25,483 nucleotides of DNA from a virus. Of this stretch, positions 791 to 18,118 are shown piece after piece. The DNA lies in the IMG/VR virus record IMGVR_UViG_3300020596_000100, positions 1 through 25,483 of that record; one strand, written 5' to 3'. Numbering within the stretch: the first letter of the stretch is position 1; each line of letters begins with the position of its first letter. The position numbers and the translations under genes are program-made. The notes below the pieces were generated by a model. That model was given only the letters and a program-made list of their open reading frames with translations. It was not told the origin of the DNA and did no database searches.

Positions 791-2767
791 TTATTCATAT
801 ACAACTTTACCTGCAAATTGTTTCTGATAAATTTCAACCCTTTGGGTTAAATGCTTAGTCATATATTTAGTACACTTGAAATTGAAATCATATACAATAG
901 CTACCTTTTTACCAGGTGATAGTCGTACTGCTCGTCCTATTGCTTGTGTCACCATGATTTCACTTTTGCCGCCTCTAGCCATAATGAGATGTGTGGTCGT
1001 CCTTAGGTCACACCCTTCGCCAAACACAGTTGATCCGATTAGTATACGAGTTTTGTTATCATTAAAATCTTCAATAGCTTCCCTGATCTCATCCTTAGTA
1101 TTATCACCTGTTACATAAGAACAGGTGATACCTGACTCAATTAAGTATTTATAAATAACATCACCTGAATGTTCTTTTTTGTCAATAAGAATAAGAATAG
1201 GCTCGTCTTTGGGTATTTTATTTTTAACTAAATCCTTAATAGATTCAAGTAGTTCTTTACATTTATAGTTAATTTTATATTCATTTTGATAATTACGATC
1301 AGGTTTACCCGATAGGGGTATAATCCTAAACTCCACAGGCGTTAGGTATCCTTCTTTAGTGGCCTGTATTGCATTGTAATCATATATCACTTCACCCGAC
1401 ATACCTTGAAGGTCCATAAGTTTAGAGTCATTGCGAGTATATGTAGCAGTCATGTTTAAACGAAAGTAAATAGGCTGTAGTGCATTTAAAAGATCAAGAT
1501 AGGAGTCAGACGCACTATTTGATACTAAAAGACCATTGGCAAAATAATTATGATTATCTTTAACCTCGATATCATATACAGTCGGATATAATCGTCTAGT
1601 TGCCACGCCATTGCAATATAAATTTTTTATTCGTTTTATTGATTTTATTTTACTCATTTTTGATGTATTATCAAACAATTTATTACAAATAGGGCAACCC
1701 GCTTCAGTTTGAATTATAAAATCATCTTCTAATGTTAAATCTTTAGCCTCGGTATACCCTCGGTTAGAAGTAAATATTTTATGATTTTCAGTACATAAAA
1801 TCGTTTTAGTATGATTATTATGTTCAAATTCTATTTGTATTAATTCAGTTTTAGGTGCATCATATTTAAAATAATTTATTACTTCTTTATATTCTAATGC
1901 GCCGCTAGGTGATTTACTTAAAACTTTACATTGTATTTTTTTATCTACAATTTGTTTTATAGATATTAAGCCTTTATCTGTAATTATTTTTTCTCCGCCG
2001 CTTAAACAATGATGAGCTTCGTCCATTATGAATAAATCTACGTTGTTTAATGGGGTCTTTATAAGCCCTTGCTTATTAAGGGAAGCTAGTGTTTGTATAG
2101 TGGCAACTCTAATAGGTTTAAGCTTCTTATCTTTCTTCATATCCAGTGTAGTTATCTTTTGAACATTCTTTTCGCCAAATGAAGATACAAAGATATCATA
2201 TGCTTGAGTTAATAGTGCACTAGATGGAACCACAAATAAAGTGTTTACACCTAGCTGTTTAATAATTTCTACAGCTATTCTAGTTTTACCGGCACCGCAA
2301 GCTAGCTGTAATACCCCCCTAGAATGCTTTATAAACACATCAACCGCCTCCTGTTGATAGTATCTTAATGCATGGGGTTTGTTATGCCATCTAAATATAT
2401 TATATGGCGCAGGTTTAATCCGTTCGTCTGATATGGTATATTGTGAACCTTGCAAAGATTCTTTAACTAAATGAATCAGCCCTGTGGGGAATTCATTATC
2501 TTTATTTAACCAGCACACTTGATCTGGACCTAAGGCTTTAAATTTACCTCTAAGCGCCATGAGGAGGGGTATATTTCGTTTAGCACCTGCTCTTTTAATT
2601 TGACTATAAAGCATTTGCTTTTCAAGAATAACGTCTTCATTAGTATAAGTTAATGATTTTTTTACCTTTTCAATATCAATGGAGGTAAAACCGTTAAGCG
2701 TACAAAATGAATTGTTAAGTTTAATTGTACTCATATATTCATTTACATTGGAATTAGATACATCCAT
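791..2767 (-). CDS. UvsW-like SF2 DNA helicase interrupted by a mini-intein
   Basis: A 658-aa precursor. Helicase motifs appear in order: a Q-like region YYQQEAV (about 136-142), motif I GAGKT (158-162), motif Ia FVVPSSALL, motif II DEAH (249-252), motif III TAT (440-442), motif V GSTVFGEGCDL and motif VI QAIGRAVR (608-615). Between DEAHH and SASDSYLDLL lies a 164-aa intein, described as its own feature. After splicing the protein would be about 494 aa, close to T4 UvsW (about 500 aa), a helicase for branch migration, fork reversal and recombination-dependent replication. Met1 has no clear Shine-Dalgarno; Met12 (start near 2734) is an alternative. Its start overlaps the end of a 42-aa micro-gene (2743-2871), suggesting translational coupling. 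It is not an HsdR: there is no PD-ExK nuclease domain and it is too short. Confidence 0.88.
   Translation of the reverse strand: MDVSNSNVNEYMSTIKLNNSFCTLNGFTSIDIEKVKKSLTYTNEDVILEKQMLYSQIKRAGAKRNIPLLMALRGKFKALGPDQVCWLNKDNEFPTGLIHLVKESLQGSQYTISDERIKPAPYNIFRWHNKPHALRYYQQEAVDVFIKHSRGVLQLACGAGKTRIAVEIIKQLGVNTLFVVPSSALLTQAYDIFVSSFGEKNVQKITTLDMKKDKKLKPIRVATIQTLASLNKQGLIKTPLNNVDLFIMDEAHHCLSGGEKIITDKGLISIKQIVDKKIQCKVLSKSPSGALEYKEVINYFKYDAPKTELIQIEFEHNNHTKTILCTENHKIFTSNRGYTEAKDLTLEDDFIIQTEAGCPICNKLFDNTSKMSKIKSIKRIKNLYCNGVATRRLYPTVYDIEVKDNHNYFANGLLVSNSASDSYLDLLNALQPIYFRLNMTATYTRNDSKLMDLQGMSGEVIYDYNAIQATKEGYLTPVEFRIIPLSGKPDRNYQNEYKINYKCKELLESIKDLVKNKIPKDEPILILIDKKEHSGDVIYKYLIESGITCSYVTGDNTKDEIREAIEDFNDNKTRILIGSTVFGEGCDLRTTTHLIMARGGKSEIMVTQAIGRAVRLSPGKKVAIVYDFNFKCTKYMTKHLTQRVEIYQKQFAGKVVYE
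1517..2008 (-). other. Mini-intein in the helicase DEAH box
   Basis: Helicase residues 254-417 form a 164-aa Hint-type intein inserted directly after DEAHH. Block A is CLSGGEKIITDKGLISI with nucleophile Cys1. Block B is ILCTENHKIFT (TxxH). Block F is VYDIEVKDNHNYF, and block G is NGLLVSN, followed by extein Ser+1. No LAGLIDADG motif is present. The central region is short and contains CPIC, which could be a remnant of a lost zinc-finger or HNH endonuclease. The penultimate residue is Ser rather than the usual His, a known but less common variation. The insertion point is in the ATPase catalytic motif, so the helicase is inactive until splicing joins the exteins. Confidence 0.9.
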
Positions 2768-2871
2768 GCATGTGGATTTCTATGGTCAGCTGTTAATAGT
2801 TTAATTATTTCATATTTAAAATAAGTTGATGTTTTATATAAATAGCCAAATTGTTTACATAAATGTTTCAT
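2743..2871 (-). CDS. 42-aa microprotein, MxxLxxQxxxxY family
   Basis: A short gene filling most of the gap upstream of the helicase. The first 12 residues are MKHLCKQFGYLY, with Leu4, Gln7 and Tyr12 matching other microproteins in this window, and the C-terminus holds AWMYLI, matching the family W-x-Y motif. The start ATG overlaps the stop of the preceding 46-aa gene by 4 nt (ATGA), and the 3' end overlaps the first codons of the helicase gene by 25 nt in another frame. It is rich in Tyr, Lys and His and has no membrane segment. No Shine-Dalgarno is visible, which fits translational coupling. Function unknown. Confidence 0.6.
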   Translation of the reverse strand: MKHLCKQFGYLYKTSTYFKYEIIKLLTADHRNPHAWMYLIPM

Positions 2872-3008
2872 ACACTATAGAGCCATAAATAATTCAACTC
2901 ATTAATTTTGCTAAATGGATATTCTCTTTCTAATACAACGGTTTTAAGTTCAAAAGAATATACACTTACAAAATAATAAAAATTAAGTTGTTTAACTAGA
3001 TTATTCAT
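2868..3008 (-). CDS. 46-aa microprotein, MxxLxxQxxxxY family
   Basis: Begins MNNLVKQLNFYY (Leu4, Gln7, Tyr12 conserved) and ends with LWLYSV, the aromatic C-terminal motif of the family. The start codon lies 8 nt inside the end of the metallopeptidase/VWA gene, and the stop overlaps the next micro-gene by 4 nt, so the chain VWA, 46 aa, 42 aa and helicase is continuous coding. Between the two motifs is a run of alternating hydrophobic and polar residues suggesting two beta strands. Function unknown. Confidence 0.62.
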   Translation of the reverse strand: MNNLVKQLNFYYFVSVYSFELKTVVLEREYPFSKINELNYLWLYSV

Positions 3009-4164
3009 TACTCGATTTAATTCTTACTAAACTACCGTAAGGTGGTTTAACTGAATCATTATTTATTACCCATAAACATTTATAAGTAACTTCTTTAGCA
3101 TCAGGAAATTCAGCATATCCATCCGTCAAGTAAATTACCCCTTTAAATCGTTCTTCAATGGCTATATCATGGACCGCAATAAAACTTGTACCGCCTTGAC
3201 ATAAACGTGAAGCTTCAAATCCTTTTACATATTTAGCACGTTGGTGTACATTAGTGTCAAATACTGCAATTTCAATATCAATATTTCCAGTTGAGTTAAT
3301 AGCTTCAATTTCTGAATAGAAGGCCCTAAGGTCATCATCACTAACGCTGCCGCTGCTATCAATTCCGATTAGAATCTCAGTCTTAGGAATCTTTTTAATA
3401 CCAGGTATTTTACTGCCAAATCGTCTACTAGGACGTTTCCATGTATTTAAAGTATTGACATCAATTAAACTTTGTGTAAATTGACGTAGCACTTGCTGCC
3501 ATGGTATTTGTTTACTAGCTTCATATTGAAACATAAAGTCTTTAACGTCTTTAGGTAGCTCTCCAGCTGAAAGTGTCTTAGCTTTTTTAGTCGCATTAGC
3601 CACTGCTTCTTTCATTAGATCTTTATTATTAGTAGAATTTTTAAAATACTCATGATCTTGATGGCTGCTATTTTGTACTTTAGCTTTAGATTTTAATTGA
3701 GCATAATAATTAATCCAGCTATCGCCAGTTGTAAAATCAAAGTGTTTAGGATAAACAGGCTGCATTTCAGCTTTTTTTACATCAGGCCCCATCAGTTTAC
3801 TTTTTACAAGTTCTTCGATGTAAGGGTTAATCTCTAGATCCATAGCGATATTAGCCATTTGCATTTGAGTTTCAATACCCATTTTTGCACTAATAGAATC
3901 TAATAAACCTTCTTTAGTTTGTTTAATATGATCTTTATAGATATGACCAAATTCATGAAGGATAATACCGGCCTGCTCTTCCATTGGTAACTTTGAAAAT
4001 AGAGTGGGGTTGATGACCATCTCGATTCTGTTTTGCACTTTAACAGCCGCAATATAAGGCTGTTTATCATCTAATGTAATCTTACATAATTGTAAAAGAG
4101 AATAAAAAAAACTGTAATTCTTTAAAAGATAAAGCTTAACTGGCCTTAAATCTAATTCATCCAT
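3001..4164 (-). CDS. Putative metallopeptidase with C-terminal VWA-like domain (DUF2201 type)
   Basis: A 387-aa protein. The N-terminal half carries a zinc-protease motif HEFGH (70-74), and the C-terminal third is a VWA-like domain with a complete MIDAS: Asp269-x-Ser271-x-Ser273 in GIDSSGSVS, Thr326 in GGTSF and Asp348 in LTDGY. This two-part layout is that of the DUF2201/VWA-like family, usually encoded beside a MoxR-type AAA ATPase, here at 7186-8532. In such pairs the ATPase is thought to act as a chaperone or remodelling partner of the VWA protein. The start is supported by the GA-rich ribosome-binding site GAGAAAGAGAG within a 36-bp repeat that is duplicated upstream of hsdM. The hsdMS cassette now separates it from its presumed partner. 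Confidence 0.85.
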   Translation of the reverse strand: MDELDLRPVKLYLLKNYSFFYSLLQLCKITLDDKQPYIAAVKVQNRIEMVINPTLFSKLPMEEQAGIILHEFGHIYKDHIKQTKEGLLDSISAKMGIETQMQMANIAMDLEINPYIEELVKSKLMGPDVKKAEMQPVYPKHFDFTTGDSWINYYAQLKSKAKVQNSSHQDHEYFKNSTNNKDLMKEAVANATKKAKTLSAGELPKDVKDFMFQYEASKQIPWQQVLRQFTQSLIDVNTLNTWKRPSRRFGSKIPGIKKIPKTEILIGIDSSGSVSDDDLRAFYSEIEAINSTGNIDIEIAVFDTNVHQRAKYVKGFEASRLCQGGTSFIAVHDIAIEERFKGVIYLTDGYAEFPDAKEVTYKCLWVINNDSVKPPYGSLVRIKSSNE

Positions 4165-4358
4165 AAACTGCTCTCTTTCTCAATTAACAATATGATATAA
4201 GTGTCTTTAACCCCAGTGCGCTCGACCGAAAACTCTTCGGCCACGTGGAATACATTATTTTGGAGTTGATAAATCCGCCAAGAGACAAATCCGGTAGCTA
4301 GCGCCGCCAATCCTGCTGCGGCGCTGGAAATGACAGACATAAGTTCGTATGAAGTCAT
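4152..4358 (-). CDS. 68-aa chimeric ORF at the cassette junction (truncated membrane protein)
   Basis: The start overlaps the hsdS stop by 4 nt (ATGA). Residues 1-53 have one hydrophobic segment (about 8-26) followed by a polar segment ending GVKDT. The remaining residues are encoded by the 36-bp direct repeat and by the first bases of the VWA gene, read out of frame. The native C-terminus was therefore cut off where the cassette joins the phage genome. It probably represents the beginning of a gene that followed hsdS in the donor. Expression is possible, but function is doubtful. Confidence 0.5.
   Translation of the reverse strand: MTSYELMSVISSAAAGLAALATGFVSWRIYQLQNNVFHVAEEFSVERTGVKDTYIILLIEKESSLWMN
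4167..4202. repeat. 36-bp direct repeat, left copy (VWA ribosome-binding region)
   Basis: Identical over 36 bp to 7031-7066. On the minus strand it carries the GA-rich ribosome-binding site immediately upstream of the VWA start codon. Together the two copies bracket the hsdMS cassette exactly. Confidence 0.92.
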
Positions 4359-5524
4359 GCTTTAACCCTCACTTTTCCAGTGAGTAGCTGCTGCATTAGA
4401 CCTTGCTTCTGTTTCCACAAATTTGCACGGATCTCACCATAGCGCGCACCAGCGAGAGTTATAGAATTGAGCAGATTTGTAATATTGTCTTGAACAGAAC
4501 GAGTCGGAACATCCAGAGTGATTGACTCCAGCTCAGACTTGTTGAGCTTTGCTCGCGTCCCGCCATTCAAAACCGGAGTAATATCCCTATGCACCAGGCT
4601 ATAAAACAAGAAATCCTGACTCACTAAATTACTGCGTGCGCGGAGAACGTGTGCATGATTGTTTACCCAAGACTTTCCACGAATTTGGTAAGCGATGGGT
4701 CTTGTTCGATATTCAGAAAAATTACCCCCGTCCTCAGCTAGGAGGACTAATGGCTCATCAAAAATGAACTCATTAATACTATCTACCTGGCCATTTGCTC
4801 CATAGTACGGATAGGAGCCCTGCATTACGGCACGCTGTTCTTGGTTTAGGGGCTTTCGTTTATTGTCTAAAATGTCACATGATTCTGAAATGCTAAGTTT
4901 TCGGGCCGAAGGAATGTTTTTAGAATAAATGAGCCTTCGTAGAAGTTCCGATTTTAATCTGAAGATTGATCGTAAAACTGAGTCCACCTCCTCAATCCCC
5001 CGATCCCAGCAGGAGAGGATTTCGGCGATTTTCTTTTGTTCGGGGAGAGGAGGGAGCGAAATCGCAAACAATCTCTGCGCCGTAATCGGAACCTGGTTTC
5101 GCGTCGATTGACCCATTACTTTTTCATACTGTTTTCTAAATATGTAGGAAGACATCGATTGCATTAAAAAGTCTTCGGACAACTTTTTAGCGTCCGTGCG
5201 AAACAGAGTAAGAGTAGTACTAAGAATTGCTTCGGGTATACCGATGAGTTTCGCAACAGGACCAACCGTTGCATTATGTGCAAAGAGGACATCTCCCGCT
5301 CTTGCTTTGCCTTTTCGAAGCGAATCGGCCTTCTCTCTGGTAAGGTACTTTGCTTTAGCGAGGTCAACTACACCGCCAATAATACAATTTGCCGAAAGGT
5401 AGGGTATGCCAGCAGAAACGAACTCATCTGAAGTTGGATATAGTTCCCCATGATTTCCATCAATATGATCTACGATCGATCCATCATCTAAAAGAGATTG
5501 AATTGAACGGGTTGGCCAACTCAC
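4355..5524 (-). CDS. hsdS: Type I restriction-modification specificity subunit HsdS
   Basis: A 389-aa protein with two target-recognition halves, each followed by a conserved helical spacer. The first half ends with LPPLPEQKKIAEIL and a coiled region, and the second ends with NLWKQKQGLMQQLLTGKVRV, the standard HsdS C-terminus. HsdS selects the bipartite DNA target for the HsdM methyltransferase. Translation starts at GTG, overlapping the hsdM stop (GTGA), so the two subunits are coupled. The protein looks full length. GC content and codon use match hsdM and differ from the phage genes around it. Confidence 0.92.
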   Translation of the reverse strand: MSWPTRSIQSLLDDGSIVDHIDGNHGELYPTSDEFVSAGIPYLSANCIIGGVVDLAKAKYLTREKADSLRKGKARAGDVLFAHNATVGPVAKLIGIPEAILSTTLTLFRTDAKKLSEDFLMQSMSSYIFRKQYEKVMGQSTRNQVPITAQRLFAISLPPLPEQKKIAEILSCWDRGIEEVDSVLRSIFRLKSELLRRLIYSKNIPSARKLSISESCDILDNKRKPLNQEQRAVMQGSYPYYGANGQVDSINEFIFDEPLVLLAEDGGNFSEYRTRPIAYQIRGKSWVNNHAHVLRARSNLVSQDFLFYSLVHRDITPVLNGGTRAKLNKSELESITLDVPTRSVQDNITNLLNSITLAGARYGEIRANLWKQKQGLMQQLLTGKVRVKA

Positions 5525-7029
5525 AACCCCAACTCCTTAAGATACCGATTCATCTCCTTACGAGTTTCAGCAAGCTGTCCTTCGATCTGCTCGATCTCCT
5601 TCTGCACAGCCTTAATGTCGATCTGCTCTTCTTCTTCGGCAGTATCTACGTAGCGCGGGATGTTGAGATTGAACTCGTTCTCACGAATCTGATCGAGACT
5701 CGCGACAAAGGAATACTTTTCTTCAGTCTTTCGCTCTTTGAACACTCGCAACACATGCTGAATGTCTTCAGGGCGAAGCTTGTTTTGATTTTTGCCTTCT
5801 TGGTACTCCCGGCTGGCATCAATAAAAAGCACGTCGTCGGTCTTCTTGCCTTTATTCAAGATCAAAATAGCCGCAGGAATTCCTGTTCCGTAAAAGAGAT
5901 TGCTCGGTAGACCAATCACAGCGTCCAGATAGTTTTCTTCAATGAGTCGTTGCCGAATTGTCCCCTCGCTAGAGCCACGAAACAAAACTCCATGAGGTAC
6001 AACGACGCCGACCTTTCCGTTCTTTGCGCTCGCCGTTTCGATCATGTGCGAAATGAATGCAAAGTCGCCTTTGCTCTTAGGCGGAATACCGCGATGAAAG
6101 CGGCTAAACGGATCGCCTGCAGCATGTTCTGCGCCCCACTTATCAAGCGAGAATGGTGGATTTGCGACGACGATCTCAAAGTTCATAAGCTTGTCTTTTT
6201 CGATAAGCTTTGGATTATTGAGAGTATCGCCCCACTCGATGCGGGCGTTGTCCATGCCGTGCAGAAACATATTCATGCGAGAAAGCGCCCAGGTGGCGCC
6301 GTTGTTCTCTTGGCCGTAGAGCGAAAAATCATCGCTCCCGATCTCTTGAGCTACGCGAATCAGAAGCGAACCCGACCCACAAGCAGGGTCGCAGATGCGT
6401 TTCCCTTTTTTTGCCTGTAGAAGTTTAGCGAGTAAGATCGCTACTTCGGTAGGCGTATAAAATTCCCCGCCTTTTTTACCGGCGTCGGGCGCGAATCGAG
6501 AAATAAGATACTCGTACGCGTTACCGATGATGTCTTGTTTGCCGACCTTCGAAGGTCTGAGATCCAGAACAGGATTAGCAAAATCACCAATCAGAAGCTC
6601 AAGCCTGCGGTTACGTTCTTTTGTCTGGCCTAGGTTAGACTTGCTATTGAAGTCGATGTTTCTAAACACACCTTCGAGTTTGGCTTTGTTAGCCTCTTCG
6701 ATTTGCTCAAGAATATTGTTAATGAACTCGCCAATTTTTACGGATTTTCGGTGCTCGTAGATGTCATCAAACGTGCATCCATCTGGAACGATAAAGCGCT
6801 CTCGGGCCAACATGTGTTTGGCGCGCGTTTCGTCGCCCTTGTGTTCTTTCAGGTAAGCGTCTTTTTTATCCTTCCAGACATCACTTAGGTATTTGATGAA
6901 CAAGAAAACCAAAATGTAGTTTTTGTACTCGGATGGATCGACCGTACCGCGAAAAGTGTCGCAGGCTTTCCAGAGGATTTTATTGATTTCTTCTTGGTTA
7001 ATTTGAACGACAGGTTCTTTAGTGGCCAT
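5521..7029 (-). CDS. hsdM: Type I restriction-modification DNA methyltransferase HsdM
   Basis: A 502-aa adenine methyltransferase from the MATKEP start. An N-terminal HsdM_N helical domain (ILWKACDTFRGTVDPSEYK) precedes motif I DPACGSGSLL (about 213-222) and catalytic motif IV NPPF (about 288-291). An open frame extends 18 nt further upstream to 7047, but the start at 7029 has the ribosome-binding site GAGAAAGAGAG in the right place, supplied by the duplicated phage repeat. No hsdR is in the window. The enzyme probably acts with HsdS to methylate phage DNA at a type I site, protecting it from a host system. That role is inferred. Confidence 0.95.
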   Translation of the reverse strand: MATKEPVVQINQEEINKILWKACDTFRGTVDPSEYKNYILVFLFIKYLSDVWKDKKDAYLKEHKGDETRAKHMLARERFIVPDGCTFDDIYEHRKSVKIGEFINNILEQIEEANKAKLEGVFRNIDFNSKSNLGQTKERNRRLELLIGDFANPVLDLRPSKVGKQDIIGNAYEYLISRFAPDAGKKGGEFYTPTEVAILLAKLLQAKKGKRICDPACGSGSLLIRVAQEIGSDDFSLYGQENNGATWALSRMNMFLHGMDNARIEWGDTLNNPKLIEKDKLMNFEIVVANPPFSLDKWGAEHAAGDPFSRFHRGIPPKSKGDFAFISHMIETASAKNGKVGVVVPHGVLFRGSSEGTIRQRLIEENYLDAVIGLPSNLFYGTGIPAAILILNKGKKTDDVLFIDASREYQEGKNQNKLRPEDIQHVLRVFKERKTEEKYSFVASLDQIRENEFNLNIPRYVDTAEEEEQIDIKAVQKEIEQIEGQLAETRKEMNRYLKELGL

Positions 7030-7030
7030 G

Positions 7031-7066
7031 ACTGCTCTCTTTCTCAATTAACAATATGATATAAGT
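7031..7066. repeat. 36-bp direct repeat, right copy (hsdM ribosome-binding region)
   Basis: Identical to 4167-4202. It lies directly upstream of the hsdM start codon and contains the stop codon of a truncated micro-gene (7044-7103). It provides phage translation signals to the acquired methyltransferase. Confidence 0.92.
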
Positions 7067-8549: not shown

Positions 8550-9482
8550 TTAATATCCATCTTCATCAATTGTTAAACTTGATAAGTTGAATTTTTTACG
8601 CCATTTTCTTAAAGATGATTGTCTTTCAGTTTCTTCATCATCTTTATCTTCATCATATCGATATTCTTTTAATCTGTCAATAGCGTCTTGAAAAGAAACA
8701 TTTAAACATAAAACACTAATAACAAGATCTTTAAGATGGTCAATAGTCATGCCATCTGTTTCTTTTACCCATAGGTCTACATCTATATTCTCATCTGGAA
8801 GGAGTTTACTAGTAATATAAAGCCTACGAGTTGCTTCATTAGGTAGCGGAATCTCAATAACACTAGCAAACCGACTAGGCCGATTTCTAAACCTAGCTGG
8901 AATACGATCTAAGTAGTTAGTGGTGGCCAAATAAACAATATTATCAATTTGATTTTGACCATCTAGTAATGAAAGGTAACCAGATTCATCCGAATTAAGA
9001 GCAGAATCAAATTCTTCCCACACTACTAAGCATCTGATATTACCTTCAATTTCTCTAATAGCTTTAAGGGCGTGAGTTAATGTACCGGGGGTTGGGCCAA
9101 AGAATACTATACCCCCTGCTTTCACTTCTGCTTCCATGATTTGCATCACGCAGGATGTTTTTCCGGTACCTGGTTTGCCGTGCATAAGAATACCGCGTTT
9201 ATAAACGATATTACGTCTCTCAAATTTATCCCTGGTAGCTTGATTCCAAAAGTTATTAACATCTTTAATAACAATTTCAGATGTAAAATCAGGTAAAGTA
9301 ATTAATCCATCGGATACCACTTGCATGGGGGCTACATATATTGCGCCACTTTTATCTACTTCCAGTGTGTATACACCAGGTGGTAGTTTGTTATAAGTAA
9401 CAGAAGGCTGCCCAAAATAGTAATCTGTTCCAGATTTTTCATAATGAGTGACACCTAGTTTTGTTTCATTAAGTATTTTCAT
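8550..9482 (-). CDS. AAA ATPase (classical AAA fold)
   Basis: A 310-aa protein. An N-terminal beta-rich region (1-65) precedes an AAA domain with Walker A GKPGTGKT (102-109), a Walker B region LVVWEEFDS (152-160) in which the usual Asp-Glu pair is replaced by Glu-Glu after Trp, sensor 1 in ATTNY (Asn189) and arginine fingers in ARFRNRPSRF (197, 200, 204). The last 50 residues are highly charged. It precedes the MoxR gene in the same operon. Cellular target unknown; it could be a third component of the MoxR-VWA system or an independent replication or chaperone factor. Confidence 0.82.
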   Translation of the reverse strand: MKILNETKLGVTHYEKSGTDYYFGQPSVTYNKLPPGVYTLEVDKSGAIYVAPMQVVSDGLITLPDFTSEIVIKDVNNFWNQATRDKFERRNIVYKRGILMHGKPGTGKTSCVMQIMEAEVKAGGIVFFGPTPGTLTHALKAIREIEGNIRCLVVWEEFDSALNSDESGYLSLLDGQNQIDNIVYLATTNYLDRIPARFRNRPSRFASVIEIPLPNEATRRLYITSKLLPDENIDVDLWVKETDGMTIDHLKDLVISVLCLNVSFQDAIDRLKEYRYDEDKDDEETERQSSLRKWRKKFNLSSLTIDEDGY

Positions 9483-9641
9483 TTATATTCCTTCATTTAC
9501 ATTGTATCTATAAATCCAGTATGTATAATCCGCCCATTGCCATGTATTCTTATATTGTTTTTGTATACCAATGATGTTTTGATTAAAGTAAATTAATTGA
9601 ACTCCATATCTTAAGTGAATTTGTAATAAAAGTTTGTTCAT
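9483..9641 (-). CDS. 52-aa microprotein, MxxLxxQxxxxY family
   Basis: Begins MNKLLLQIHLRY, with Leu4, Gln7 and Tyr12 conserved, and carries NTWQW and then YWIYRY near the end. The start overlaps the stop of the upstream 50-aa gene by 4 nt (ATGA), and the stop lies directly against the AAA ATPase start (TAA then ATG). The GAAGGA coding bases near its end can serve as the Shine-Dalgarno of that ATPase. The best-formed member of the family described here. Function unknown. Confidence 0.65.
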   Translation of the reverse strand: MNKLLLQIHLRYGVQLIYFNQNIIGIQKQYKNTWQWADYTYWIYRYNVNEGI

Positions 9642-9790
9642 TGCTCTTCATCTTTAATCATTGTATCCCAGTCTGGTTCCCATTGAGCCGCTTCTTCGAT
9701 AGCTTTAGTTAGCTCTTCATCAGTTGGCTCTCTGCGTAGTTCTTCACATAACGCTTCAAATATTTCTTCTTCAATATTAAAGTAATTCAT
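9638..9790 (-). CDS. 50-aa acidic hypothetical protein
   Basis: A very acidic protein with about a third Glu/Asp, largely predicted helical, ending in a Trp-containing stretch EPDWDTMIKDEEQ. The ATG overlaps the PilZ gene stop by 4 nt (ATGA), and its own stop overlaps the following micro-gene by 4 nt. The strong negative charge would suit a DNA-mimic or inhibitor role, as in several small phage proteins, but nothing proves this. Confidence 0.65.
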   Translation of the reverse strand: MNYFNIEEEIFEALCEELRREPTDEELTKAIEEAAQWEPDWDTMIKDEEQ

Positions 9791-14069: not shown

Positions 14070-14350
14070 TTCAATAACATATCTTTAATCCCATCATGTA
14101 AGCTTTTATCTAATTGTTCTTTTAAATCAACACAATAGCTTTCAAATGGCTTTTTAGGTAAAACTTTATGTAATACCCAAAACTTGTCTTTAATAGTTAT
14201 CTTATCAAGTACAACAAACTCTAATACATTGCCATTAAACTCACCGTAATGCATTAGCCAATTACTTAATCGTTCTTCACAAGGTGAAAACCCTTTAATG
14301 ATGTTCGTATTAACGATAAACTGTTCTGGTGGCGGTGGTGGTTGTTTCAT
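14051..14350 (-). CDS. 99-aa hypothetical protein with N-terminal polyproline
   Basis: Starts MKQPPPPPEQF, where the Pro run is encoded by CCACCGCCACC, the complement of a GGT-type repeat recurring in this region. The rest is soluble, with FSPCEERLSNWLMHYGEF and a C-terminal amphipathic helix. It follows the 47-aa membrane gene by 9 nt. The 3' end lies in an operator-like palindrome. Not recognised. Confidence 0.65.
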   Translation of the reverse strand: MKQPPPPPEQFIVNTNIIKGFSPCEERLSNWLMHYGEFNGNVLEFVVLDKITIKDKFWVLHKVLPKKPFESYCVDLKEQLDKSLHDGIKDMLLNIPDKV

Positions 14351-14359
14351 GTTTATTAT

Positions 14360-14503
14360 TCACCTAACAAAGCGTACGTTTAGCATCTCTATTGCGCCTA
14401 GGCCAATAAAACAAGCAACTAGAACAGCAACTACCACTGCGAATAGCAGCAGTGGTGGTGGTATTAGGTATAATGCTAAAAACTCTTTAATATTCATTAT
14501 CAT
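14360..14503 (-). CDS. 47-aa single-pass membrane microprotein
   Basis: A very hydrophobic helix (about 15-38) containing PPPLLLFAVVVAVLV, where PPP is again encoded by CCACCACCA. GAGGGG lies 5 nt upstream of the ATG. The second ATG (14497) is an alternative. Adjacent to the 99-aa gene in one transcript. Function unknown. Confidence 0.58.
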   Translation of the reverse strand: MIMNIKEFLALYLIPPPLLLFAVVVAVLVACFIGLGAIEMLNVRFVR

Positions 14504-14522
14504 AAATCCCCTCTTCCCTCTA

Positions 14523-14585
14523 TTAACCGTTAATGAATTTGTTAAGAATCCACCAAATTGCTACTGTATAAATAATAATCATCAT
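14523..14585 (-). CDS. 20-aa leaderless hydrophobic micro-gene
   Basis: Encodes a single short helix, MMIIIYTVAIWWILNKFING. It is the first frame after the promoter at 14592-14620, again with the -10 exactly 6 nt from the ATG. Its size makes it uncertain, but position and promoter support it. Confidence 0.45.
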   Translation of the reverse strand: MMIIIYTVAIWWILNKFING

Positions 14586-14591
14586 ATAACC

Positions 14592-14620
14592 AATATATCA
14601 CACATGAAATAGAAACACAA
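14592..14620 (-). promoter_or_regulatory. Promoter next to a poly-G tract
   Basis: Minus strand TTGTGT (14620-14615), 17-bp spacer, TATATT (14597-14592), 6 nt, ATG 14585. An 11-nt G run (14623-14633) begins 2 nt upstream of the -35. The weak -35 lowers confidence. Confidence 0.5.
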
Positions 14621-14777
14621 TAGGGGGGGGGGGTGATAGATTATAATAAACACAATTATATCAAATATGACATTAAGTGTAATAGGTATGTATGTATCTT
14701 ATACGGTGTATAATAAACACAATTATATCAAATATGGTGGTGGTGGTGGTGGTATTAAGTAATAGGTACAGTAGATA

Positions 14778-14913
14778 CCACTATAATAGCTAACACACAC
14801 CCACATACCCACCACTATAATAGCTAACACACACCCACATACCCACCACTATAATAGCTAACACATACCCACATACCCACCACTATAATAGCTAACACAC
14901 ACATATACACCCA
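14778..14913. repeat. 34-bp tandem repeat, four units
   Basis: Units begin at 14778, 14812, 14846 and 14880 with CCACTATAATAGCTAACACA. The first three are nearly identical and the fourth decays. A complementary GTGGGTGGGTGGGTATGTGT follows at 14939-14958, so the array can fold back. Confidence 0.9.
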
Positions 14914-14978
14914 CTATAGCTAGTGTAGATACAACTAAGTGGGTGGGTGGGTATGTGTGTACAATATACCAATACTAG

Positions 14979-15118
14979 CTTACAATTAACAGCTTACAAT
15001 TAACAGCTTACAATTAACAGCTAACAGCTAACAATTAACAATTAACAGCTAACAATTAACAGCTAACAATTAACAATTAACAGCTAACAATTAACAATTA
15101 ACAGCTAACAATTAACCG
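14979..15118. repeat. Heptamer tandem array, consensus YTWACAR
   Basis: Twenty consecutive 7-bp units, nineteen of them fitting YTWACAR (TTAACAG, CTAACAA, TTAACAA, CTTACAA), with the last one degenerate. The same TTAACAG unit occurs in pairs within the 44-bp repeats at 18421-18508. Confidence 0.92.
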
Positions 15119-15561
15119 TGTATACATACTGCACACCAGCAACCCGCACACAAGTATACAGCAACCCGCACACACTCACTGTGCAAACTATTGCACACCA
15201 GCAACCCGCTAACAAGTATACAGCGCATACATACTCTTTCTCTCTATTACACCTATACATACCCTCTATTACCATAGGTATATATACACATACATACTCT
15301 CTATTACCATAGGTATATATACACACTCTCTCTCTATTACACTCTCTCTATTACACACACACACTCTATTATTACCATAGGTGTGTATACACACACATAT
15401 ATACACTCTATTATACCTATACACCCCCTCCCCCTATTGTTTGGTATTAGGGTATATGCACACACACACACTCTCTATTACACCTATACACACACATACT
15501 CTCTCTCTCTCTCCCCCTATTGTTTGGTGGCGGGTATGCTGTATACAGCTAACATACACAC

Positions 15562-15627
15562 TATCAACTATAGAGTGAAAATCGTTTATAGGGGGCAATT
15601 GTGTGCGTTTAAATAGGTAATTAGAGA
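15562..15627 (+). repeat. Dispersed ~65-bp repeat, copy 3
   Basis: Same orientation and sequence as copies 1 and 2, from TATCAACTATAGAGTG to AAATAGGTAATTAGAG. Located inside the low-complexity region. Confidence 0.9.
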
Positions 15628-16044
15628 GAGGGTGTATGTATATGTATGTTAGCTGTATGCGCATACACACACACACACACACACACTTCTCTTGCACGTA
15701 CGTAAACATTAAACGGTTAACAGATGGCTCTAATTGGGTTTGGTTGGTATTGCGTACACACACACCCCTATGTAATAGCTAACACATACATATACCTACC
15801 TATGTTAGCTATATACACATCAGCTCTGTGTAGAGAGAGAGAGAGAGTGTATACCGTATACTTGAACACACACTGTATACCACCACCCCAGTTGGGGACG
15901 GAGGGGTATGCTAATGGTTAATGGGTGTCCAGTATACAGCAGCGCGAGATTAAAGATTTTAGTATAAATAGGTTATAGCGGGCTGTAATGGCTAACAGCT
16001 AGCAATAAGGTGGTGGTGGTTGGTATCTAGTTTTATAATGCCTG

Positions 16045-16092
16045 TTAAACGCACACAATCACCCTATAAACGATTTTCACTCTATAGTTGAT
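16045..16092 (-). repeat. Dispersed repeat, copy 4 (inverted, shorter)
   Basis: Reverse complement of the first roughly 48 bp of the repeat, from TTAAACGCACACAAT to CACTCTATAGTTGATA. It lacks the AAATAGGTAATTAGAG end. Confidence 0.88.
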
Positions 16093-16300
16093 AGGTAGAG
16101 AGAGGAGAGAGGTGTATACACCGTTGTATATTACAGTGGTGGTGGTGGCGGTGATTAAACATATGGTTTACAGTTTACTATACACTGTAAACAATGTTAT
16201 AATGTGTGTCAAGTTATAGTTATGTTATGGTTATTATATTATAGTTATGGTTATAATGTCAAGTTATGGTTGTATTAATAAATCCATAGTATGTAAATGA

Positions 16301-16455
16301 GTTTTATCACATAGAAAGTACATAGGAAATGGGTTATAGTGTGTGTAGTGTAGTGTAGTTTTATAGTTTGTTATAATTATGTTAAGATTGTGTTAATAAA
16401 CACCATAGGTAGGGGGGGTTTTATCACATAGAAAGTACATAGGAAATGGGTTATA
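16301..16455. repeat. Duplicated 38-bp block, period 117 bp
   Basis: The 38-bp sequence beginning GTTTTATCACATAGAAAGTA is perfect at 16301-16338 and 16418-16455. The sequences before each copy (a GTTA..TTAATAAA..CCATAG stretch) are also related, so the unit is an older 117-bp tandem duplication. Confidence 0.9.
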
Positions 16456-16498
16456 ATGAAAACAGTGTGTAACGAACGAGGTTGATGTGAGGTTGATT

Positions 16499-16585
16499 TT
16501 AAAATGAAAAGTAGGTATGGATACGATTTATCAATTTACGTTCAACCAGATGGCGTATAGCTCGTTTAAACGCTATTTCTAACAT
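16499..16585 (-). CDS. 28-aa basic micro-gene
   Basis: Encodes a basic amphipathic helix starting MLEIAFKRAIRHLVERKL. It lies 6 nt after the stop of the preceding microprotein gene. No Shine-Dalgarno. It does not share the MxxLxxQ pattern. Weakly supported. Confidence 0.35.
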   Translation of the reverse strand: MLEIAFKRAIRHLVERKLINRIHTYFSF

Positions 16586-16591
16586 ATAAAC

Positions 16592-16744
16592 CTAATCTAA
16601 GCTGTACCATTTCCATTTTATGTTATGGTAGGTGTAAACAGCCACTCGATAGATGGCCATAAACGATGGATGGGTATTGTAACTTATGTGTCCAGTTTCC
16701 AGAACCTGGTAATTATACCCCATATGTTTTAATAAGCTAAACAC
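16592..16744 (-). CDS. 50-aa microprotein, MxxLxxHxxxxY family (GTG start)
   Basis: With a GTG start at 16744 the first residues are MFSLLKHMGYNY, fitting the family Leu4, His7 and Tyr12, and the C-terminus has KWKWYSLD. The GTG lies 8 nt inside the previous gene (GTGTTTAG), the same overlap as at 3001-3008 and 16891-16898. The in-frame ATG at 16723 would lose the N-terminal motif. Third gene in a row of three family members. Confidence 0.58.
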   Translation of the reverse strand: MFSLLKHMGYNYQVLETGHISYNTHPSFMAIYRVAVYTYHNIKWKWYSLD

Positions 16745-16898
16745 CGCTGCCACCACCACCACTTTGAGTATTAACTCCTAGTTTATATTCCATGCTATAG
16801 AACCAACGCCAATATGGTCTAGATATATAACCAATTGCTATATCATCTCTCACTTTGTAAACATAATCTACACCTAGCTGTCGAAATAGCTTAGTCAT
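16737..16898 (-). CDS. 53-aa microprotein, MxxLxxQxxxxY family
   Basis: Begins MTKLFRQLGVDY and has RWFYSMEY at 31-38, matching both family motifs. It ends with a flexible GGGGSG tail encoded by a GGT-type repeat, seen as CACCACCACCAC on the plus strand. The ATG overlaps the stop of the previous micro-gene by 8 nt (ATGACTAA), and its stop overlaps the next by 8 nt. Middle strand region VYKVRDDIAIGYISR looks like a beta hairpin. Function unknown. Confidence 0.62.
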   Translation of the reverse strand: MTKLFRQLGVDYVYKVRDDIAIGYISRPYWRWFYSMEYKLGVNTQSGGGGSGV

Positions 16899-17013
16899 TT
16901 AGCATCCATATCATATTAAAAGGGTCACCGTTATAATGAATACATACAAATATAATTGATCCAAACTTGTTATTAACCATATAAGATGTATAGTGATAAT
17001 TGAATTGGTTCAC
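16891..17013 (-). CDS. 40-aa microprotein, divergent family member (GTG start)
   Basis: With GTG at 17013 the start is MNQFNYHYTSYM (Phe4, His7, Tyr11) and the end is FNMIWMLND, similar to the W-x-Y motif with Leu for Tyr. An ATG at 16980 would give 29 aa, with TATACA 6 nt upstream resembling the leaderless pattern elsewhere. Which start is used is uncertain. First of three overlapping members, divergent from the plus-strand promoter at 17056. Confidence 0.45.
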   Translation of the reverse strand: MNQFNYHYTSYMVNNKFGSIIFVCIHYNGDPFNMIWMLND

Positions 17014-17055
17014 CAATACATTCATATATTATTTATTAAACCCACCACCCCCCTA

Positions 17056-17085
17056 TTGACTTTAAACGGTGTTGTGTGGTATAAT
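17056..17085 (+). promoter_or_regulatory. Strong sigma70-type promoter, leaderless architecture
   Basis: TTGACT (17056-17061), 18-bp spacer, consensus TATAAT (17080-17085), then 6 nt to ATG 17092. It opens the rightward transcription unit carrying the FlbD-like gene and the tRNA. Confidence 0.82.
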
Positions 17086-17091
17086 AACTTT

Positions 17092-17274
17092 ATGAAACTA
17101 ATTAAAGTGACAATCATATCTGGAGCTAATATTTATGTTAATCCATTGGAAGTGGCTTATTTAAGAAGTGACCCTATGGACCCAACCGTTACATGGATTT
17201 ATGCAGGGGATATGGTTCATAAAATTAAACTTTCATTAGAAGAAACAGTTAAACTTTTAGAAAAAAGTAAATAG
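17092..17274 (+). CDS. 60-aa FlbD-like small protein
   Basis: Starts MKLIKVTIISG. The order VT..SG..IYVNP..V.YL..DP, TVTWIYAGD, HKIKLSLEETVKLL resembles the short FlbD fold of flagellar operons: four strands and a C-terminal helix. The in-frame ATG at 16993 is unlikely because the promoter lies between it and this ATG. There is no Shine-Dalgarno; the mRNA is probably leaderless. A second protein of similar pattern follows the tRNA. FlbD similarity is by eye; any link to flagella is speculative. Confidence 0.68.
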   Translation: MKLIKVTIISGANIYVNPLEVAYLRSDPMDPTVTWIYAGDMVHKIKLSLEETVKLLEKSK

Positions 17275-17724: not shown

Positions 17725-17924
17725 AAAATAACATACCTAATGGGTTCACTGAACTACTTAATTCATTTGATCCTACTAATTTAAATAAATTACCTGCAGC
17801 TGAATTAATTAAAGTATTCAGTCTACTTAAAGATTCTCAACAAGTATTGAGTGAACTATCTCAATATAGTAATTTAAACGCACACATTTCCCCTATAATC
17901 AATAGATACAAAGAATGGAAGTAA
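17721..17924 (+). CDS. 67-aa helical hypothetical protein
   Basis: Starts MKNNIPNGFTELLNSFDP; mostly helical with a Ser/Gln-rich middle (LLKDSQQVLSELSQY). No Shine-Dalgarno is obvious; it may be coupled to the 14-aa frame. It overlaps or abuts the next membrane gene. Not recognised. Confidence 0.65.
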   Translation: MKNNIPNGFTELLNSFDPTNLNKLPAAELIKVFSLLKDSQQVLSELSQYSNLNAHISPIINRYKEWK

Positions 17925-17926
17925 TA

Positions 17927-18118
17927 ATGCAAACAATACTATTAGCTTTAACTGGCAGCCTTCTAGGAGGTTTAACATTATCTTTAACTGTATACTTGCT
18001 ATACCGTCATGAACAAGCTAAGTATAAACAAAAGATAGCTGATGCTTTAAAGCAGACTAAAGATATGTATTATGAAAAGTTAACAGATAGAGCTAATTCA
18101 TTAGGTAAAATGAATTGA
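17927..18118 (+). CDS. 63-aa single-pass membrane protein
   Basis: An N-terminal transmembrane helix (about residues 3-25) followed by a charged coiled-coil-like tail (RHEQAKYKQKIADALKQ). The start at 17927 has GGAAG 5 nt upstream; the ATG at 17915 lies inside the previous gene. The anchor-plus-coil layout is that of small phage envelope proteins, including inner-membrane spanins, without other support. Its stop overlaps the TTG of the next micro-gene. Confidence 0.65.
   Translation: MQTILLALTGSLLGGLTLSLTVYLLYRHEQAKYKQKIADALKQTKDMYYEKLTDRANSLGKMN

Follow-up and report, generated by a model that had tools for sequence, protein, structure and literature searches.

Termination-reinitiation is known to need overlaps between the stop codon of one gene and the start codon of the next, and among the overlaps found in prokaryotes that of 8 nt is the third commonest, after 4 and 1 nt, and the shortest possible in phase 1 (PMC10666635). 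The phage microgenes described here resemble termination-reinitiation pairs in that there is a 4- or 8-nt overlap of stop and start codons and coupling would be expected, but in the known pairs overlaps of 4 nt far outnumber those of 8 nt, whereas among the microgenes the two are about equal and belong to one protein family. Comparison can also be made with MPME1 and MPME2 of mycobacteriophages, which are ~440 bp in length with a 123-residue ORF (PMC4351075, PMC3029335). In both cases an ultra-small phage element carries one small ORF, is present or absent among close phages and in one instance lies inside a gene; however, most microgenes are ~75-260 nt, highly divergent, without terminal inverted repeats and arranged in arrays, with up to dozens per genome. 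The MPMEs are marked by near-identical copies in new locations; no such copies were found among the microgenes, where DNA similarity is confined to the initial ~36 nt. Freestanding homing endonucleases that split genes (mobE/nrdA, and seg near gene 43 of Aeromonas phage 25; PMC2988022) are likewise small genes between essential genes, one microgene being located at a split B-family DNA polymerase, and presence or absence at the same site in relatives, typical of homing endonuclease genes, was also observed for the microgenes. The latter differ in being far too short, with no nuclease domain (HNH, GIY-YIG or LAGLIDADG) and no family match; Pfam and PHROG searches of the members gave no match beyond chance. 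The Start-Associated Sequences of Cluster K (PMC3203893) are also short conserved sequences at many translation starts per phage genome, but they are upstream of the starts, RBS-like and before unrelated genes, whereas in the microgenes the conserved stretch is itself coding and specifies a peptide that is conserved. Overlap-coupled translation itself is well known, and what is new is the protein family and its genomic behaviour.

The window, i.e. the whole stretch of DNA that was analysed, comprises 25,483 bases of a single IMG/VR virus record and contains a triple of consecutive minus-strand ORFs of 44, 53 and 50 aa, with start/stop overlaps of 8 nt each (Table 1). The second and third ORFs (ORF2 and ORF3) and their overlaps are present exactly as described in an initial annotation of this DNA, and the 8-nt overlap that it reported between the VWA gene and the 46-aa gene was found at 3008-3001. 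For the first ORF the frame given there stood but another start fits better; the GTG at 17013, which yields 40 aa, is internal and the ATG at 17025 (MNVLVNQFNYHY...) was preferred because the family N-terminus is present only in the longer form. Stops or frameshifts in relatives, which that annotation had named as the observation that would speak against it, were looked for in two relatives (L003 and L005) and the frames survived. A close relative, L003, retains all three ORFs of the triple with the overlap between ORF2 and ORF3 intact, the sole change being in the tail of ORF2, which has three substitutions and has lost 9 nt in frame. The triple is adjoined by ~2 kb of low-complexity, repeat-rich and apparently non-coding DNA (14300-16500) with tandem units of 14, 34 and 35 nt and a 41-nt direct repeat at 16301 and 16418; an RNA-family search of the region matched only a tRNA. 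On the other side a near-consensus promoter (window 17056-17094) ends 6 nt before the plus-strand ATG at 17092, suggesting a leaderless transcript.

Table 1. Coordinates in the window of the microgenes, their neighbouring genes and a candidate promoter
Feature	Position	Strand	Remarks
Triple member 1	16891..17025	minus	44 aa, ATG at 17025; L003 copy identical
Triple member 2 (ORF2)	16737..16898	minus	53 aa, ATG; first 8 nt (ATGACTAA) overlap stop of member 1
Triple member 3 (ORF3)	16592..16744	minus	50 aa, GTG; first 8 nt (GTGTTTAG) overlap stop of member 2; L003 copy identical
Candidate promoter for divergent gene at 17092	17056..17085	plus	TTGACT, 18 nt, TATAAT; consensus match only; bounds the triple upstream
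46-aa member	2868..3008	minus	8-nt overlap (ATGAATAA) with stop of VWA gene
42-aa member	2743..2871	minus	4-nt overlap (ATGA) with 46-aa member; identical in L005
52-aa member	9483..9641	minus	4-nt overlap with preceding 50-aa gene; own stop abuts start of AAA ATPase gene
Probable seventh member, 37 aa	18115..18228	plus	TTG start; 4-nt overlap with preceding 67-aa gene
VWA-domain gene, precedes 46-aa member	3001..4164	minus	Pfam DUF2201
Helicase gene with intein, after 42-aa member	791..2767	minus	Likely start is internal ATG 2734
50-aa gene, before 52-aa member	9638..9790	minus	
AAA ATPase gene, after 52-aa member	8550..9482	minus	
67-aa gene, before 37-aa member	17915..18118	plus	G001 homolog has no such follower

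Outside the triple the window contains three further minus-strand members and a probable seventh on the plus strand. The L003 copy of the latter has lost one codon and gained four, with the frame and the W.Y motif kept (it ends W-T-Y), while the L005 copy of the 46-aa member carries six nonsynonymous changes and a deleted codon, the adjoining VWA gene differing at 3 of 1164 bases. The start of the helicase gene was placed at the internal ATG because the homologous helicase of G001, a cousin phage, begins at the equivalent Met. Several larger differences between the window and L005 were also seen. An intein-like insertion in the helicase gene (1518-2006; Pfam Intein_splicing) is missing from L005, which is otherwise 99% identical, as is a type I restriction-modification insertion at 4202-7031 with HsdM- and HsdS-like ORFs, in which no HsdR was seen and where the ends of the matches to L005 overlap by ~36 nt, hinting at flanking direct repeats; conversely, L005 has an ATP-dependent DNA ligase-like ORF (646-1800) in a stretch with no counterpart in the window.

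Comparison of the predicted proteins places the triple in a previously undescribed family of ~45-residue phage proteins, of which there are at least 44 copies in three related phages or lineages, all of them metagenomic contigs. The catalogue used for counting comprises seven members from the window, three from other contigs of the window phage (L022), six from a cousin contig (L018) and 28 from G001, an 84,867-base (84.9-kb) record that is syntenic with the window phage; both ends of the G001 contig interrupt the same helicase gene, and the record may therefore be a full-length circular genome. L018 was found with a degenerate DNA pattern of the N-terminus, a relaxed version of which led to L044, part of G001, and a helicase-based search led to L022 and L023. 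The consensus N-terminus, M-N-E/K-L-V/C-K-Q-L/F-G-Y-x-Y, is followed by a variable body with W-x-Y/F, and most members are of 24-87 aa. A Trp is found in the body of 39 of the 44, and W-x-[YF] in that of 28, compared with 14 of 378 control ORFs (p = 3e-22). When a profile of the first 13 residues was built from five of the six minus-strand window members and the sixth was scored, each in turn ranked first among 247 candidate ORFs, bearing out the earlier proposal that the frames are real genes and paralogs, and the 37-aa plus-strand ORF was among the top-scoring other candidates. In a profile search most members scored at least 14.6 bits against no more than 11.6 for reversed-sequence controls, a separation that is partly circular since most members were in the profile seed, the circularity being limited by the leave-one-out ranks and the non-seed members. 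Lower scores were obtained for four G001 members, 10308 and the longer variants 16313, 16870 and 17067 (78, 186 and 66 aa), which are counted mainly on N-terminus and position. Pattern matches in L030, L032, L033, L037 and L039, with neither W.Y nor a junction context, were treated as chance. One member (L047 15127-14948) has an in-frame tandem duplication of ~12 residues (TEAVWDYFYYMS twice), which is one way that tails may grow, and a 208-aa formylglycine-generating enzyme-like gene (L047 1834-1208) lies inside a G001 microgene array with a microgene-like 4-nt overlap at its start.

The family is protein-coding, judging from the pattern of substitutions and indels and from the helix-plus-three-strands model obtained for one member. 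Leu4 is present in all 44 members, encoded by five codons, with pN/pS of 0.15, compared with 1.1 for residues 13-22, which argues that selection acts on the peptide and mainly on its N-terminus. Among near-identical phages there were 17 nonsynonymous differences to one synonymous, in few orthologous pairs, and all indels were multiples of three, in keeping with the fast divergence that had been suggested; with such small numbers 'diversifying' selection is suggestive. Ordinary compact-genome overlaps of unrelated tiny ORFs, with a likeness arising from AT-rich and tyrosine-rich composition, would account for some of these features, as the region is AT-rich, AT-rich ORFs are rich in Tyr codons and overlaps of 4 and 8 nt are common in prokaryotes (PMC10666635). 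This is most improbable given the conservation of Leu4 through five codons, the frame-keeping indels, the presence of the family in independent phages and the absence of the pattern from distant relatives and a Silvanigrella phage. Chance ORFs of AT-rich composition were also rejected on the leave-one-out ranks, the profile separation and the W.[YF] enrichment.

The overlap with the preceding stop was 4 nt in 19 of the 44 members, counting for the first member of the triple an overlap with a 31-aa, probably non-genic frame, and 8 nt in 17. Among non-family same-strand neighbours, whose start codons were picked nearest possible to the stop, the corresponding figures were 12 and 7 of 95, so that one or other overlap was found in 36/44 of the family and 19/95 of other neighbours (p = 4e-12). 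In each frame, family members favoured an upstream stop within their first 8 nt over one immediately preceding the start, the ratio being 36:2 for the family and 19:24 for the others (p = 7e-7). Overlaps of 4 nt are as frequent as the recurrent 8-nt overlaps, and a special signal was rejected; as 8 nt is the shortest overlap in its frame (PMC10666635) the geometry fits ordinary termination-reinitiation. SD-like motifs were found before 9 of 44 members compared with 40 of 88 longer genes. This scarcity and the overlap geometry make termination-reinitiation, as previously proposed, the most likely mode of translation, overlap or very short stop-start spacing being the mark of genes coupled in this way. 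Within its first 8 nt each of the 44 heads contains a stop in an alternative frame, and 27 have stops in both alternative frames, compared with 6 of 76 other genes (p = 4e-10), an enrichment that partly follows from the conserved M-N-E/K codons.

Given this geometry the copies might be regarded as translational relay elements, the 36-nt head and short peptide passing ribosomes between operon genes and setting expression ratios, with the identity of the peptide of little importance. In favour of this, replication and ATPase genes have copies at their stop-start junctions, and the stop of a copy is often where the following gene begins (TAAATG at 9483; an 8-nt overlap with the polymerase in L022). 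However, a relay has no need of Leu4 conservation with free synonymous change or of a C-terminal W.Y, and the same gene pairs are found without copies in cousins, where they are presumably still expressed, which makes this explanation unlikely.

Gene-order comparison of the window phage, L018 and G001 revealed different numbers of microgenes at the same junctions. Between helicase-primase and polymerase there is one copy in L022, three in L018 and one in G001, and between polymerase and the next gene there are two, none and none, respectively. The VWA/helicase junction has two copies in the window and six in G001, the locus of the triple three and ~10, and the junction downstream of the 67-aa gene one and none, while that between a 73-aa gene and an HD gene has none in the window and one in L018. 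In the three informative cases (the 73-aa gene, the polymerase C-part and a 70/88-aa gene) proteins with a copy behind them end 1-4 residues earlier than copy-free homologs. A further variation concerns the B-family DNA polymerase, which in G001 is a single 710-aa ORF. In L018 it is encoded by two ORFs, with a 48-aa microgene, overlapping by 8 nt at its start, between residues equivalent to 488 and 490, and in L022 by two ORFs with no microgene between the halves. Each half is 54-72% identical to the intact enzyme, so that both are probably in use. The microgene may have split the polymerase gene or may have entered an existing split; a similar ambiguity over gene 43 of Aeromonas phages is on record (PMC2988022).

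BLASTN between members found DNA similarity almost only in the first ~36 nt. No greater similarity was detected between array neighbours than between distant members (permutation p = 0.12), with the exception of the G001 pair 60858/60686, and copies are scattered over the genome. Recent local duplication, by which the initial annotation had explained the triple, is therefore not supported and was ruled out. It is conceivable instead that the copies are mobile genetic parasites, whose peptide serves only the spread or harmlessness of the element and whose start-plus-stop head allows landing at gene ends with no silencing of neighbours. The alternative-frame stops in every head and the excess of heads with both fit such a parasite, and high copy number, the confinement of DNA similarity to the head, gain and loss at junctions, the copy between the polymerase halves and the loss of the last 1-4 residues of preceding genes all point in the same direction. 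Against this, the copies have no transposase, nuclease or terminal inverted repeats (the longest inverted end match averaged 5.4, as in shuffled sequences), in-frame fusions to preceding genes, expected from random landing, were looked for and not found, and the protein-level conservation of Leu4, LGY.Y and W.Y seen in most copies points to use of the protein from each of them. A selfish origin is possible, but rather improbable. It may tentatively be suggested that the copies form an endonuclease-free class of mobile microgene of ~130 nt, with a 36-nt head that provides a start codon and stops in both other frames. Such an element could enter an operon gene internally or at its end, in either of the two frames, bring that gene to a stop, be translated through re-initiation and hand ribosomes on. 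A replicative DNA polymerase may have been divided by one such copy into two chains that both work, and the repeated head may be a recombination substrate.

Searches of Pfam, PHROGs, PADLOC, PDB sequences, cultured phages and plasmids yielded no credible match for any member. Likewise tblastn with single members against INPHARED and PLSDB gave nothing credible, and matches to PADLOC defence profiles were isolated and restricted to single members, the best (E 0.0027) being to one restriction enzyme model. The AlphaFold model of ORF2 was poor (pLDDT 55), whereas that of a 43-aa member from L022 (pLDDT 80) had a helix at residues 2-7 and strands at 11-16, 21-28 and 31-39. Foldseek gave no significant match. 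dsRNA-binding domains (alpha-beta-beta-beta-alpha) recurred among the weak ones, with a best E of 0.79, and resemble the helix-plus-three-strands part, but the matches are not significant, the L022 model has no second helix and no Pfam match to this domain was found at E 10 for 25 members.

The explanation that best accommodates these observations, to which we assign a probability of about 0.6, is that a phage group possesses a new, fast-diversifying microprotein family with many copies, one array of which is the triple. Each copy would be a small gene set at the junction of two operon genes, its first 8 bases providing both its own start codon and a stop for the preceding frame (in one frame by an overlap of 4 nt, in the other by 8 nt), and a ribosome finishing the upstream gene would be expected to re-initiate on the microgene. 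Comparison indicates that copies have been gained and lost at such junctions during phage evolution. The protein probably folds into a small module in which a helix at the N-terminus, containing the invariant Leu4, precedes three strands that bear Y-x-Y and W-x-Y. A common partner would be contacted by the conserved N-terminus, while the variable body would diverge under little constraint or diversifying selection. The most likely role would be that of small binding proteins, perhaps for early host takeover or counter-defence.

As regards distribution, terminase and portal of the window phage are 29-32% identical to those of the Silvanigrella phage CP017838, in which no family members were found. 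Nor were any found in portal relatives from two metagenome-assembled genomes (L052 and L053, 47-49%), and a search of GTDB genomes with the strict family pattern gave 0 matches. A run of small neighbouring ORFs on the minus strand of L053 (4255-7156) shares P-C-G-x-Y/F followed by W, and is possibly a second, unrelated paralog family. As to the host, Bdellovibrionota-like bacteria would be a guess. Most copies would be discarded by gene callers that apply a size threshold, and other phages may therefore harbour similar families that have escaped notice. Three overlapping tiny ORFs, at first sight a curiosity, are part of a new protein family with an unusual genomic lifestyle, in which very small and divergent copies, dozens in number, are gained and lost at stop-start junctions with the operon not visibly broken. 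Two questions thereby become testable, namely to what extent termination-reinitiation allows phages to accommodate additional genes at any point of an operon, and by what route essential genes are split.
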